Below are positions 3,800 through 39,927 of a DNA stretch of 39,927 nucleotides, in pieces. The number at the start of each line of letters is the position of its first letter. Position 1 is the stretch's first letter. This DNA is from Alphaproteobacteria bacterium. GTDB lineage: Bacteria; Pseudomonadota; Alphaproteobacteria; SHVV01. The DNA is taken from positions 1 to 39,927 of the forward strand of contig SHVV01000006.1 in assembly GCA_009694095.1 (NCBI GenBank). Direction: 5' to 3'. The translations under genes were made by a program, and so were the position numbers. The notes beneath the pieces were generated by a model. The model saw only the letters and a list, made by a program, of their open reading frames with translations. It made no database searches and was not told the DNA's origin.

Positions 3800-4972
3800 T
3801 CACACCGCACTGCGCGCGCGAAGCTTCCCGATCGTCGCCGCGTCGCAGCCGATTCGTTGCAAGATTTCTTCCGTGTGTTCGCCGACTTGGGCCAAGGCCG
3901 GATTCACGCGCCCCGGCTCGTCGGCGTACTTGATCGGTACGCCGATATGATCGTTGCCCTCGGCGTCAGTCACCCGCATGGCGCGGGCGCGAACGTGCGG
4001 CCGCTCCCACGCTTCGGCTAGGTCCAGCACCGGCATCGCCGGAATGTCGCGTCCTTCGAACCACGCCTCCCATTCCGCACGGGTCTTGGCGCGGAACGCG
4101 GCGCGCAGGAACGCGATCGCGGGCGCGTGCCCGGGTCCCGCCGGCCCAGCGACCGCGGCGATGTATTCGGGCGCGCCCAGGCCATTGAACAAATTCGCGA
4201 CGAATTTCTTCTCGCCGCCGCCCATGGCGATGTGGCCGCCGTCCTTGGTGGCGTAAATATTGAACATGGCGTTGCCGCCGAGGGTGCGCTCGTCCGCCGG
4301 GTCGGGCGCGCGGCCACCGCCGAACACCGGACCGACGATATTGGGCTCGGCGGCCAAGACCGATTCGAACATGCTGACGTCGAGGTAATCGCCGGCGCCA
4401 GTTTTCTCGCGGCGGTAAAGCGCCATGACAACGCCAGCGAACACCAGCTGCGCCGCCAGGATATCGGCGATCGCGACGCCCAAGAGCGCCGGCCCGCCGC
4501 CCTCGGGCGAGCGCGATAGCGAGAGCGCGCCGGCCGCAGCGACCGTCGCGGTATCGTGCGCCGCCACGTCGCGCCACGGGCCGGTTTGGCCGAAGGCCGA
4601 AAGCGAACAATAGACCAGGCGCGGATTGGCGGCGCGCAGGCTTTCCGGCCCCAACCCCAGCCGCGCCATCACGCCGGGGCGGAACGACTCGACCATCACG
4701 TCGGCGCCAGCCGCGAGCTTCATCAGCAGCGCTTTCGCTTCCGCGTCCTTCAAGTTGAGCGTCACGCTTTTCTTGCCGCGGTGCGTCGAGCGGTACATCA
4801 CCGTGTGGCCGCCCTGGGTCCACGGAAAATACTGGGTCGAGCGGCCCGGCTCGGGCGCCGCCGGGTTCTCAATCTTGATCACCTCAGCGCCGTGGTCCGC
4901 CATCATCTGGGTCGCGAGCGGCCCCGGCAAAAACAGCGAGAGGTCGATCACGCGCACGCCGTCGAGTTTCAT
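3800..4972 (-). CDS. CaiB/BaiF type III CoA-transferase family protein
   Basis: MKLDGVRVIDLSLFLPGPLATQMMADHGAEVIKIENP...; SAFGQTGPWRDVAAHD; DYLDVSMFES. Start chosen at the Met of MKLDGV. Confidence 0.88.
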   Translation of the reverse strand: MKLDGVRVIDLSLFLPGPLATQMMADHGAEVIKIENPAAPEPGRSTQYFPWTQGGHTVMYRSTHRGKKSVTLNLKDAEAKALLMKLAAGADVMVESFRPGVMARLGLGPESLRAANPRLVYCSLSAFGQTGPWRDVAAHDTATVAAAGALSLSRSPEGGGPALLGVAIADILAAQLVFAGVVMALYRREKTGAGDYLDVSMFESVLAAEPNIVGPVFGGGRAPDPADERTLGGNAMFNIYATKDGGHIAMGGGEKKFVANLFNGLGAPEYIAAVAGPAGPGHAPAIAFLRAAFRAKTRAEWEAWFEGRDIPAMPVLDLAEAWERPHVRARAMRVTDAEGNDHIGVPIKYADEPGRVNPALAQVGEHTEEILQRIGCDAATIGKLRARSAV

Positions 4973-5108
4973 CGCGACCCCCTTGGCTCGAATGGAGCCG
5001 CAACGTTCGCACGTGTGCGCCTCAACCTCCAAGCATCAACCGGGCGAACGGCGCCAGCCCCAAGCGAGCGAAAGCAAAACGGGCTGGAGCGCCCCAGTTC
5101 ACCCAAAC

Positions 5109-34807: not shown

Positions 34808-36003
34808 TCAATGCTCGAAACGGCTGGGCTTCGGCTCGCCGAACAGATAATCCTGCGCGTAGTCGATGTTGTGATCGATCAGATTGATGGCGACTGCTTC
34901 GGTTTCGACCCGTTCGGCGATCAGCCCGATACCGATTCGGCGCAGCGCCACCGACAGATCCTCGATATGGACCGGAAGGTCGGCCTGGTGGCGGGCCGAC
35001 ATCAGCGTTTCGGCGTTGACCTTGAGGAACTTGACGCCACGCTTCGCCAACTCGGAAATATCGAAGTGCAACGAGCGCACATGGTCGATCGAGAGTCCGA
35101 AGCGCAACTTCGCCAAGCGATCGAGGTTGCCCCGACGCTCGGATCGGTAAGAGTATCTTGCTCGAACTCGAAAAACAGCATCGGCGCCAATTCGGTGTTG
35201 TGCTGTAAAAAATCGACGAACTGCGAAAAAAAATCGCGATCGAGCAAAGAGGAACGCGAGATATTGAAAAAAACTCGAACCCCGATTCATCGCTAATAAC
35301 CCGACGCACGAGCTGGACGCAACAGATCAACAGCAGATTGTCGATCGTCGCGACGAAGCCGCGCTCGGCAGCGACGGCGATGTATCGCTCGGGCAGGATC
35401 ACGCGGCCGTCTTCCTCTCGTATCCGCGACAGAACTTCGCAGAACCGAACTTGAAGCGCCGGCAAACGGACGATCGGTTGCAGATACAGATCAAACCAAT
35501 TCTCGCGCAGGGCGCGCTTGGTGATTTCCAACACGTCGGCCTGCGCCAGCGACTTCGGTTGGATCATTGGCAGAGGCTGTATCGAATTGGACAGCGCGTC
35601 GTTCTTCGCCGTTGGTACCGCGTTGCCCCCGCTTGACGTTGAGATGCGTTAGCAGGCTGCGCAGAACCCGCATCTCGGAAACGATCTCGTTGTTCGAGCG
35701 AGCAACGTCGCCGTCCGACGCGAGAACTGTGAGCTCGGCCATTTTGGCTTCGGTCGCCGCCAGTTCACTTTTCAGGTCATCATGCGAAGCGCGAAGCGCC
35801 CGAACGTGATGCGACAGGCGCGGGTTGAGAGCGATCTGTGAAGCGACCACATGAATGAGTGCGCCGGCCACCAGAACGAAACTTGCGGCACCGTAGGCCG
35901 TCGATCCGGCCAGCGCTGGGTTGTCGTGCGGCAACCAGTAGCCGAAGCTGGCGGCAGCGGCGCTGTAGCCGAGCGGGATCGAGAGGTGCCAGTACCATTT
36001 CAT
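34808..36003 (-). pseudogene. Membrane-anchored degenerate EAL-domain protein, disrupted by three frameshifts
   Basis: Frame pieces in order: MKWYWHLSIPLGYSAAAAS...SLLTHLNVKRG | GNAVPTAKNDALSNSIQPLPMIQPKSLAQADVLEITKRALRENWFDLYLQPIVRLPALQVRFCEVLSRIREEDGRVILPERYIAVAAERGFVATIDNLLL... | VFFNISRSSLLDRDFFSQFVDFLQHNTELAPMLFFEFEQDTL | NLDRLAKLRFGLSIDHVRSLHFDISELAKRGVKFLKVNAETL...IAERVETEAVAINLIDHNIDYAQDYLFGEPKPSRFEH*. Confidence 0.8.
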
Positions 36004-36090
36004 GGCGCTATGCGGGACCTTCGCTCACCGTTGGAGAGCGTAACGACTTGGCAGGGTGGCGGCAGGGTAGCGCCTGACTTCACGCGGCTG

Positions 36091-37152
36091 TTATAGCGCA
36101 TCGCGCCCGACTGCGTCGGCAACCGACGCTAAGCCGTCGCGGACAAGCAGGTCCGCGAGTTCGCGTTTGATCCGGCGAACCAACCCGGGACCTTCGAAGA
36201 CGAGCGCGGTGTAGAGTTGGACCAGGCTCGCGCCGGCGCGGATCTTGGCGTAGGCGTCGGCGGCTGAAGCGATACCGCCAACCCCGATCAGCGGAATCCG
36301 GCCCGCCGTCAGTCGATACATGTCGCGCAGGACCGCGAGCGAGGGCGCGAAAAGTGGTGCGCCGCTCAAGCCCCCCGCTTCGTCCCGGGCGGCGCTCTTG
36401 AGACCTTTGCGCGCCGCAACCGTAGTGTTGCCGACAATCAATCCGTCGAGCTTTTTTTCCAACGCGACGGCGGCGATGGCGGCCCGTTCGTCCGGGTCCA
36501 GATCAGGCGCGATTTTCGCGAGAATTGGGACCGGATGCACGCCGGCACGAGCCGCTACTTGGCGCGCAGCGTCGAGCCGGTCCAGCAACTCGAAGAGAGC
36601 TGCTCGACTTTGCAGCGCCCGCAGCCCCGGCGTGTTCGGCGAGGAGACATTGACGACGACATACGACGCATATGGCGCGAGCGCCGCGTACCCGGCGACG
36701 TAATCGGCGATCCGGTCAGCGCTATCCTTGTTGGCACCGACGTTGGCGCCGACGATGCCGGTGCTGCGGCGACCCGCGAGGCGGCCGGCCGAGGCGGCAA
36801 GCCCATGGTTGTTGAAGCCCAGCCGGTTCACCACCGCTCGATCTTCGACGAGGCGAAATAGTCGGGGTTTGGCGTTGCCCGTCTGCGGGCGCGGCGTCGT
36901 CGAACCGACCTCGACGAAGCCAAAGCCTATTCCCAACATAGCGTCAACGACGAGCGCATCTTTGTCGAAGCCGGCTGCAAGCCCGACTGGATTGGGAAAA
37001 ACGAGCCCGAGAACGCGAACGGCGAGAACTGCGGGGTCTGGCTCCGGTTCGGCCTTGAAGAGTCCAGATCCCAGCGCCCGGAGGGTTAGCCTATGCGCGA
37101 CCTCCGGATCGAGCCGGTGGAGAACGGGACGTACAATGGAGAACAGCTTCAT
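36091..37152 (-). CDS. pyrD: Dihydroorotate dehydrogenase (quinone)
   Basis: NPVGLAAGFDKDALVVDAML, VEVGSTTPRPQTGNAKPRLFRLVEDRAVVNRLGFNN, VVNVSSPNTPGLRALQ, GVGGIASAADAYAKIRAGASLVQLYTALV. Confidence 0.95.
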   Translation of the reverse strand: MKLFSIVRPVLHRLDPEVAHRLTLRALGSGLFKAEPEPDPAVLAVRVLGLVFPNPVGLAAGFDKDALVVDAMLGIGFGFVEVGSTTPRPQTGNAKPRLFRLVEDRAVVNRLGFNNHGLAASAGRLAGRRSTGIVGANVGANKDSADRIADYVAGYAALAPYASYVVVNVSSPNTPGLRALQSRAALFELLDRLDAARQVAARAGVHPVPILAKIAPDLDPDERAAIAAVALEKKLDGLIVGNTTVAARKGLKSAARDEAGGLSGAPLFAPSLAVLRDMYRLTAGRIPLIGVGGIASAADAYAKIRAGASLVQLYTALVFEGPGLVRRIKRELADLLVRDGLASVADAVGRDAL

Positions 37153-37233
37153 CACGATCGGCGCCGGCACTGTACAAAATACTCGGTTGCTCGGAAAGGT
37201 AGGTCAGTACTATGGGGTAGACTGGTAGCCAAG

Positions 37234-38526
37234 ATGAAACTATTCCCCACCGTCCTTTTCGCCTCGATCGTTCTCGTCGGTCCGCCCGCGTTTTCCCAGC
37301 CGATCCACGATGCCGGTCAAGACATCTTCGATCGCATCAACGGGGCGATCGCAGCCACGTGCGCCCACCCCAACGATACGCTGAAGCAAATGGCAGCGCA
37401 TTTGGGGAGCGGCGCAGCACCGGTCTACCACCAGGTCCTTCGCCGCCGTGCGGTCGTGGCCGGTTGGCAGCGCGCCTTCACCCTCAAGACCTACGGCCTC
37501 CTCGAAGTGACTCGGATCCAGCCGACCGACGCCAGCGGCCAGATAACGGCCGAATTTTCGCTCGCCCTCGGCGAGCGTCTGCTGCCGACTCTCTCGGTGC
37601 TAGCGACGATCGATTGCCGCGTGCTCGAAGGTCGGCGCTTGGCCTATGACGGCAACGGTCAGCTCGAAAGTCTGATCGTCCTCGACGCCGACCTTGCGAC
37701 CATTGGCCCGGGCGCGAAACTCAATCCTGAATTCCCACCGGCCGTGGCTGGCGATTCCGCCAGCGAAGCTATCCGCGTCGCGATCGTCGACACCGGTATC
37801 AACTATCAGCTGCCGATCTTTGCCCGCGCGCTCGCCCGCAACCGTCACGGCCAACCACTCGGCTACGACTATTGGGATCTCGACCCGTTTCCATTCGACA
37901 GCGATCCGCGGCGCTCGCCGTTCTATCCCATGCATCAGGGCACTCGCACGGCGAGCGTGATCGTGAACGAGGCGCCGGCGGCGAAGATCGTCCCTTACCG
38001 CTTTCCTTATCCCGATGTCAGCCTGATGGCCGATCTCGTGCGCGACGCCGACGATGCCGGCGCCCGGATCGTCGCGATCGCGTTCTCCGGCGGCGAAGGC
38101 GAATGGGACGCCTTCATCGAGGCAGCCGAATCGCGGCCCAACATGTTGATCATCGCCGCGGCCGGCCCCGGCGGCGCCAATCTCGATGTCACCGCCGAGC
38201 CTCCGGCGACTCTAACGCTGCCAAATATCATCATCGTTACGGCAGCCGATCGCCGCGGACGCATACTCGAGGGCGCAAATTTCGGCCCTCGTTCAGTCCA
38301 CCTCGCCATGGTAGCGGACGACGTCGCCGTGGTCGATTTCTCCGGCCGGCCCGGGCGCGCAGCCGGCACCGGAATAGCCGCGGCGCGGCTGGCGGCCCTC
38401 GCCGCACGCTTGCTTGCCCGCAATCCGACCTGGACGATGAAAGAACTTCGCCGCGAGCTTTTCATCCTCGGTCGCACCGTGGCCGGCGAGCCGGCGCGCA
38501 CGCGCCATGGCGTGATCATGGAGTGA
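37234..38526 (+). CDS. Secreted subtilisin-fold (S8/S53-like) protein, predicted catalytically inactive
   Basis: Signal peptide MKLFPTVLFASIVLVGPPAFSQ; VAIVDTGIN (Asp motif), MHQGTRTASVIV (His motif region), IIAAAGPGGANLD, AGTGIAAARLAALAARLL (Ser motif region reads GTG). Confidence 0.7.
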   Translation: MKLFPTVLFASIVLVGPPAFSQPIHDAGQDIFDRINGAIAATCAHPNDTLKQMAAHLGSGAAPVYHQVLRRRAVVAGWQRAFTLKTYGLLEVTRIQPTDASGQITAEFSLALGERLLPTLSVLATIDCRVLEGRRLAYDGNGQLESLIVLDADLATIGPGAKLNPEFPPAVAGDSASEAIRVAIVDTGINYQLPIFARALARNRHGQPLGYDYWDLDPFPFDSDPRRSPFYPMHQGTRTASVIVNEAPAAKIVPYRFPYPDVSLMADLVRDADDAGARIVAIAFSGGEGEWDAFIEAAESRPNMLIIAAAGPGGANLDVTAEPPATLTLPNIIIVTAADRRGRILEGANFGPRSVHLAMVADDVAVVDFSGRPGRAAGTGIAAARLAALAARLLARNPTWTMKELRRELFILGRTVAGEPARTRHGVIME

Positions 38527-38576: not shown

Positions 38577-39269
38577 TCAAAGCAGCGAAGAGAACAAGGT
38601 CTGTTCCGGCTCGATGCAGCCAGCATCGTCGTTCTTAACCGAATTGACCCGGATCGAGACCCGTGTCACGGCGAGTTCGCCCGCGTAAGGCTTTAGAAGC
38701 GCATCGGGCGTTGCGCCGGCGCTGGCCCGAAGCCACGATTCGTGGTCGCGTTTTGGTAGGATGACCGGCATGCGCTCGTGCAGCACGCGGAGCTCCTCGT
38801 TAGCTTCTGTCGTGACGATCGTGCAACTTTGGATCGGTCCCGCCCCTCCTGGCGCCGGCGGATGCCAGCGATCCCATAACCCGGCAAAGACGAACGGCCG
38901 GCCATCGGGCGGCGCGATCAGATACGGCTGTTTGATCTTGCCCTCGATCTTCCACTCGTAAAATCCGTCGGCGAGGATGAGGCAACGGCGTCGAGCGAAC
39001 GCGTCGCGAAATGCTGGTTTTTCCTTAAGGGTGTCGGCGCGGGCATTGATGGTCTTGGCGCCGAACGCCAGGTCCTTGGCCCAAGCCGGGATCAGGCCCC
39101 AACGAAACGTCGCGAGTTCGGACTGGCCATCGGCACCAATCCGAACCGCATGCACCGGATCGGTCGGCGCGATATTGTAGCGGGGCGGTGCGTTCGGAAT
39201 CGCCCCAGTCAGCGATAGGTATTCGAAATATTCGGCCCAGGTGACCGAGCGCTTGAAGCGGCCGCACAT
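38577..39269 (-). CDS. SRAP (SOS response-associated peptidase, YedK/HMCES-like) protein
   Basis: MCGRFKRSVTWAEYFEY (Cys2), PPRYNIAPTDPVHAVR, FRWGLIPAWAKD, INARADTLKEKPAFRDAFARRRCLILADGFYEW, LHERMPVIL. Confidence 0.95.
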   Translation of the reverse strand: MCGRFKRSVTWAEYFEYLSLTGAIPNAPPRYNIAPTDPVHAVRIGADGQSELATFRWGLIPAWAKDLAFGAKTINARADTLKEKPAFRDAFARRRCLILADGFYEWKIEGKIKQPYLIAPPDGRPFVFAGLWDRWHPPAPGGAGPIQSCTIVTTEANEELRVLHERMPVILPKRDHESWLRASAGATPDALLKPYAGELAVTRVSIRVNSVKNDDAGCIEPEQTLFSSLL

Positions 39270-39326
39270 TGACCTTCGGTCCCTCCTCTCCTAGCCAACG
39301 GAGACGATCGATTCCGGGAGGCCCAC

Positions 39327-39927
39327 ATGCTCCACCTTTACGACTATCTGCCCTCGGGCAACGGCTACAAAGTTCGCCTGCTGCTCCGACTGCTTGGACT
39401 GCCCTAAGGGCGCACCGACCTCGATGTCATGAAAGGCGAAACGCGCACGCTGGCGTTCCTGGCCAAGAACCCGAACGGCCGCATCCCGGCGCTCCAACTC
39501 AACGCCGGCACGGTTCTGTGGGAGTTGAACGCCATCATATTTTACCTGGCCGACGGAACTCGTTTCTTGCCCACCGCCCGGCTTGCCCGCGCCCTGCAAT
39601 GGATGTCTTTCGAGCGTTATAGCTACGAGCCCTATATCGAGGGTGGTACGGTTCTAGTTGTAGCATACCGGCCTCGATGACGAAAATCGCCGCCAGTTGC
39701 CGCAGAAACGGGCCGGCGGCGAAGCGACGCTCTGGGTTATGGAACGTCACCTCGCGAACGAGGCGTTCTTCGTCGGCCCTTCTCTCACGATCGCCGATAT
39801 CGCGCTTTACGCCTATACCCACGTCGCCGACGAGGGCTCGTTCGACAGAGAAAGGGCCCGCCAGCGGCAAGAACCCTAGCGACCCGTCTGATCCGAGGGG
39901 CTGCGCTAGATCGAGGATCGATTCATC
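39327..39927 (+). pseudogene. Glutathione S-transferase-like gene, decayed
   Basis: MLHLYDYLPSGNGYKVRLLLRLLGLP*GRTDLDVMKGETRTLAFLAKNPNGRIPALQL...LWELNAIIFYLADGTRFLP...YIEG; then frame change to RF*L*HTGLDDENRRQLPQKRAGGEATLWVMERHLANEAFFVGPSLTIADIALYAYTHVADEG; TAA 39405-39407, TAG 39655-39657 and 39661-39663; further disruption after GSFD. Confidence 0.8.

Follow-up and report, generated by a model that had tools for sequence, protein, structure and literature searches.

The bacterial S8 pseudoproteases that we found in the literature searched are of the CspA/CspC type of Clostridioides difficile and its relatives. CspC has kept its catalytic Asp, with Ser changed to Gly and His to Thr, and the Csp proteins carry a jelly-roll insert of ~130 aa in the S8 domain (PMC6636752). 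The remaining families considered were compared by profile score. QhpE, the maturation protease of quinohemoprotein amine dehydrogenase, is a bacterial subtilisin-like S8 protein with weak profile similarity to the protein described here (NCBIfam NF049966, 16.1 bits against a cut-off of 165). Mycosins (MycP) are active, exported S8 proteases that form part of actinobacterial type VII secretion systems, and their profile (TIGR03921) was the best NCBIfam match by score, yet at 49.8 bits it fell far below its cut-off of 278.75. The protein was assigned to neither family, nor to the PatA family, for which the score was also far below the cut-off. A number of well-characterized pseudoproteases act as regulators of an active relative present in the same cell, whereas in the case described here the protease itself was apparently converted, and no active S8 copy was detected.

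The gene lies in the window, by which we mean the whole 39,927-nucleotide stretch of DNA that was analysed (assembly G000, contig C71). Its features and those of its neighbours are:

36091 to 37152, minus strand: pyrD (dihydroorotate dehydrogenase), the neighbour used as a selection yardstick; an ORF with an intact orthologue in the sister genomes and a dN/dS of 0.10-0.18.
37153 to 37233, no strand: 81-bp region between the divergent starts of pyrD and the pseudo-subtilase; both sister genomes and G228 have the same divergent arrangement.
37234 to 38526, plus strand: pseudo-subtilase coding sequence, 430 aa; open frame, Pfam PF00082 match (E 6.2e-14), orthologues 64-65% identical in G001 and G002, the other genomes of the genus.
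37234 to 37296, plus strand: probable signal peptide, residues 1-21, read directly as MKLFPTVLFASIVLVGPPAFS; the least conserved part, with low model confidence.
37297 to 37719, plus strand: N-terminal domain, residues 22-162; two helices and seven strands predicted (AlphaFold2 pLDDT 90.8 when modelled by itself).
37768 to 38469, plus strand: S8 core, residues 179-412; Pfam match at 179-407 and Foldseek matches to solved subtilases.
37789 to 37791, plus strand: D186, the catalytic Asp position, retained; D in 49/49 scorable canonical relatives and in 3/3 genus members.
37936 to 37938, plus strand: Q235, replacing the catalytic His; H in 49/49 relatives, Q in 3/3 genus members.
38167 to 38169, plus strand: P312, replacing the oxyanion Asn; N in 50/50 relatives, P in 3/3 genus members.
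38371 to 38373, plus strand: G380, replacing the catalytic Ser; S in 49/49 relatives, G in 3/3 genus members.
38577 to 39269, minus strand: SRAP (SOS response associated peptidase, YedK-like), convergent neighbour; PF02586 match (Pfam) on the L002 orthologue, and synteny.

An initial sequence-only reading had described this frame as intact among neighbours littered with stops, and all 430 codons are indeed open. The 81 bp that it gave for the region shared with pyrD holds if pyrD starts at the ATG at 37152, and becomes 63 bp if the GTG at 37170 is used instead. Its description of the neighbours applies to two genes, while pyrD, SRAP and a HAD gene are intact. The first of the two, an EAL-type gene (34811-36024, minus strand), is split over several frames in the window and is a single open frame in both sister genomes. 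The second, a GST gene downstream of SRAP (39315-39855, plus strand), has stops and a frame change in the window and is intact in both sisters. The breakage is thus private to the window genome or an assembly fault.

Pfam returned a single significant family for the 430-aa protein, Peptidase_S8, where the score of 52.4 bits clears the cut-off of 21.8. A phmmer search of solved structures matched AK.1 protease and subtilisin BPN' at E ~1e-7. The structure prediction proposed as a check on the sequence-only reading was run with AlphaFold2 on 45 aligned sequences, and the model (mean pLDDT 87.3, pTM 0.84) predicts an intact S8 fold. A Foldseek search with this model matched deseasin MCP-01 (E 1.8e-15) and subtilisins including BPN' (~1e-13). 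The profile match above cut-off and the Foldseek match together place the protein in the S8 fold family as a homologue, in agreement with the S8-like core recognized earlier. Profile-based annotation would label the gene a serine peptidase of family S8.

Ahead of the core, the N-terminal hydrophobic stretch, judged by eye, is typical of a signal peptide, as had been read from the sequence, and identity between the window and the sisters falls there to 21-26%, the lowest of the whole protein. The order of elements in the N-terminal domain differs from the usual I9 propeptide fold, and a search with residues 22-162 gave no PDB match better than E 0.2. A confident seven-stranded prediction with no solved counterpart at E below 0.2 describes this domain throughout the S8 family to which the protein belongs. 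We considered a LolA-type lipid binder, which was not supported (best LolA-superfamily matches E 0.25-0.36, TM 0.27-0.33). Among the 45 aligned sequences, C128 is invariant and C43 is present in at least 90%; the two likely form a disulfide, which would fit export.

Alignment to the canonical relatives is ungapped at all four active-site motifs, so the register is secure, and each motif bears out what had been read from the sequence. The Asp motif, VAIVDTGIN, is normal and supplies D186. The His motif reads YPMHQGTRTA, with Gln235 directly before GT and a His one position earlier, the oxyanion region reads IIAAAGPGG, with Pro312 at the Asn position, and the Ser motif reads AAGTGIAAAR, with Gly380 at the position of the catalytic Ser. 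Canonical relatives have, for example, RHGTAVAS, SAGNDG and SGSSYAVPR. In the AlphaFold2 model, D186 is at the end of strand 181-186, Q235 at the start of helix 235-246, P312 just after strand 305-309, and G380 near the start of helix 379-396. These predicted positions in the secondary structure are the classical ones, where subtilisin keeps its triad and oxyanion residue, and no usable His or Ser is present at the canonical sites. An active S8 peptidase has an Asp/His/Ser triad and an oxyanion Asn; with H235Q, N312P and S380G, the Asp alone is kept.

In the genome collection used, the genus (an uncultured freshwater lineage), its family and its order are sampled by three genomes, all drafts: the window assembly (63% complete), G001 (95%) and G002 (86%). 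Wider sampling of the order added no others. G001 is the public record VGEO01, isolate K_Offshore_80m_m2_115, and G002 is CAMDOQ01, isolate TH-11nov19-65, identified in each case by identical proteins. The sample names suggest that both came from lake water, Lake Tanganyika for G001, and PMC8245535 is the likely source study of G001. All three genomes have the pseudo-subtilase in single copy and in the same synteny, with the gene order HAD, EAL-type gene, pyrD, pseudo-subtilase, SRAP, GST. Conservation of the substitutions in orthologues had been put forward as a check, and in both sister species the gene is intact with the same Asp/Gln/Pro/Gly. It is the one S8 match in each of these drafts, in which a copy may have been missed.

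A scan of the genome collection with the single protein found no relatives, and an alignment-based scan found 44 loci. From public genomes and 385 genomes of the class we gathered 50 distinct relatives outside the genus, nearly all alphaproteobacterial, and every scorable one is canonical at the Asp, His, Asn and Ser positions. One copy is in a record titled Mesoflavibacter (Bacteroidota; CP051228.1, L023) and groups closely with that of the alphaproteobacterial G378; the record is probably a mislabelled assembly. The relatives form an unnamed alphaproteobacterial S8 family (e.g. Labrenzia sp. THAF82, L031) to which the genus copies are homologous over their whole length, at 32-41% identity in the aligned set, with the N-terminal domain, the cysteine pair and a GYDxWDxD signature in common. 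Members of this family differ in having the full Asp/His/Ser triad and the Asn and in lying mostly beside a trypsin-PDZ protease, both of which the genus copies lack.

In a maximum-likelihood tree, the three genus members form one clade (100/100) amid canonical relatives. Its stem is long, at 1.89 changes per site, and no exact sister of the clade was singled out. The copy in G228, from another family, has the canonical triad and is also divergent to pyrD, which provides a live counterpart in an equivalent position. Since the same replacements occur in 3/3 genus members and the canonical state elsewhere, a single derived loss on the long stem branch is the simplest account, and the replacements are not an artefact of sequencing or of a pseudogene. 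Because the change has one clean origin and can be compared with live relatives, including one in the divergent pyrD setting, the step from enzyme to binding protein is directly testable.

The dN/dS comparison suggested with the sequence-only reading gave 0.03-0.07 by four methods for G001 against G002, which indicates purifying selection and is below the value for pyrD; this low figure comes from that one genome pair, comparisons with the window being saturated at synonymous sites. For the same pair, dN/dS was 0.07-0.16 for SRAP and 0.03-0.10 for GST. The two pseudo-subtilase proteins are 95.8% identical (pyrD 88%), their codons have 84 synonymous and 18 amino-acid differences, and third codon positions differ at 20%. 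In the window comparisons third positions also change most (0.49 vs 0.27 and 0.20). A canonical triad in orthologues combined with relaxed selection on this copy had been named as evidence against the sequence-only reading; distant orthologues do have the triad, but the two sister species share the replaced residues, and purifying selection on the gene is stronger than on pyrD. The two marks of a pseudoprotease, missing catalytic residues and a protein kept by selection, were found in three species, with the dN/dS taken from G001/G002.

Conservation extends to the dead site. The sequence around the lost triad is 84% identical within the genus; in 418 canonical pairs that have diverged to a similar degree, live active sites show 83%. 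This level does not significantly exceed that of the rest of the domain (30/233 circular shifts reach it). In the canonical relatives, 117 positions are at least 90% conserved. All genus members retain the residue at 72 of these and depart from it at another 32, the His, Asn and Ser sites among them; at 23 of the 32 the three have one common new residue. The fixed replacements and purifying selection support the earlier suggestion of selection for a non-proteolytic role, the role itself being a prediction from sequence.

Set against the Csp proteins, the pseudo-subtilase resembles CspC and CspA in its S8 fold, in keeping Asp with His and Ser lost, and in being limited to one lineage with triad-bearing relatives elsewhere. 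It differs in several respects. The Csp proteins have a jelly-roll insert, whereas the S8 part here is ~234 residues with no such insert in the predicted model; they have a subtilisin-type prodomain, whereas the N-terminal domain here has another order of elements; and the host here is an alphaproteobacterium. They also have an active companion in CspB, whereas no companion S8 was detected in the three draft genomes. With a single S8 match per genome, regulation of an active S8 relative, as in CspC/CspB, is not apparent. Our best reading is that the pseudo-subtilase is CspC-like in principle, independently evolved and outside the Csp group.

We think that this is probably a real pseudoprotease, an exported S8 protease that became a predicted non-cutting binding protein in the stem lineage of the genus. 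There, the catalytic His and Ser and the oxyanion Asn of a single-copy exported protease were replaced, the predicted fold stayed intact, and the non-cutting form became fixed in the genus. With export judged by eye, the mature protein would leave the cytoplasm and may then use the surface surrounding the former active site to bind a putative ligand or protein partner; it could serve as a periplasmic or extracellular receptor or scaffold. The canonical PLGS strand, which forms the S1 substrate wall, is altered in the genus copies and is not constant even among them, which gives no support to ordinary peptide binding in the cleft. No other S8 gene was detected in the genus genomes, which argues against a decoy for a sister S8 protease. 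More tentatively, the only detected S8 gene of the genus might have been converted in place into a stand-alone exported receptor with no active sister, its dead site serving as a new ligand-binding or catalytic pocket. Among possible roles, we infer that binding outside the cytoplasm is the most likely, that inhibitor or adaptor of another protease comes next, and that a migrated active site is unlikely.

The alternative that survives best, which we regard as unlikely, is that the protein inhibits another protease or acts as its adaptor; a periplasmic trypsin-PDZ (HtrA/Deg) protease would be one example. In 33/42 canonical loci a convergent Trypsin_2/PDZ protease lies close to the subtilase, usually directly adjacent, which hints at a two-protease system. 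That partner was not detected in the genus: no close relative was found in the three genomes, where the best matches had E 1e-5 or weaker, a generic HtrA-type level. Any inhibitor target would thus be a different protease, and inhibition of the adjacent protease of the canonical locus was rejected. Partner loss as the cause of catalytic loss was rejected as well; the canonical G305, G065 and G132 also have no close partner match, so partner absence and catalytic loss are not coupled. The convergent, conserved S8 and Trypsin_2/PDZ pair was itself seen in many Alphaproteobacteria (L010-L048, e.g. L031:6993-8273 and L036:7233-8411). We rejected a role in anti-phage defence: the sole profile match was a generic subtilase one at 37 bits, and no defence genes lie nearby.

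It is very improbable that the active site migrated, with His234 and Thr379, each one place before the lost His or Ser, joining D186 in a shifted triad or a new chemistry. H234 (Arg in canonical relatives) and T379 (Ser in canonical relatives) are both invariant in the genus, the protein is strongly constrained, as would be expected of an enzyme, and according to a review some proteins presumed to be pseudoenzymes may have catalytic residues that migrated (PMC10211241). Still, the oxyanion Asn position is Pro, and a Thr before the catalytic Ser is ordinary in subtilases (the GTS motif). Because the alignment has no gap and the helices are predicted to start at the same places, the shifted His234 and Thr379 side chains should point elsewhere.

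Equally hard to favour is the view that the N-terminal domain acts structurally or as a chaperone and that the S8 part has been retained just as a fold: the domain has its high-confidence prediction without a solved counterpart and its conserved cysteine pair, but of the two parts the S8 one shows the higher conservation in the genus (74% against 53% identity between the window and G001). Least credible is a decaying gene, its function recently lost and its frame open only passively, since the broken EAL-type and GST neighbours that suggest it are open in the sisters, while the pseudo-subtilase is intact in three species with the same replacements, and for G001/G002 its dN/dS and protein identity refute decay.

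Elsewhere in the window, a cytochrome c maturation (ccm)-like cluster was recognized by reading at ~1.7-11 kb, and within it, on the opposite strand, lies an ORF that by eye resembles a CaiB/BaiF-type CoA transferase (3800-5032, minus strand).
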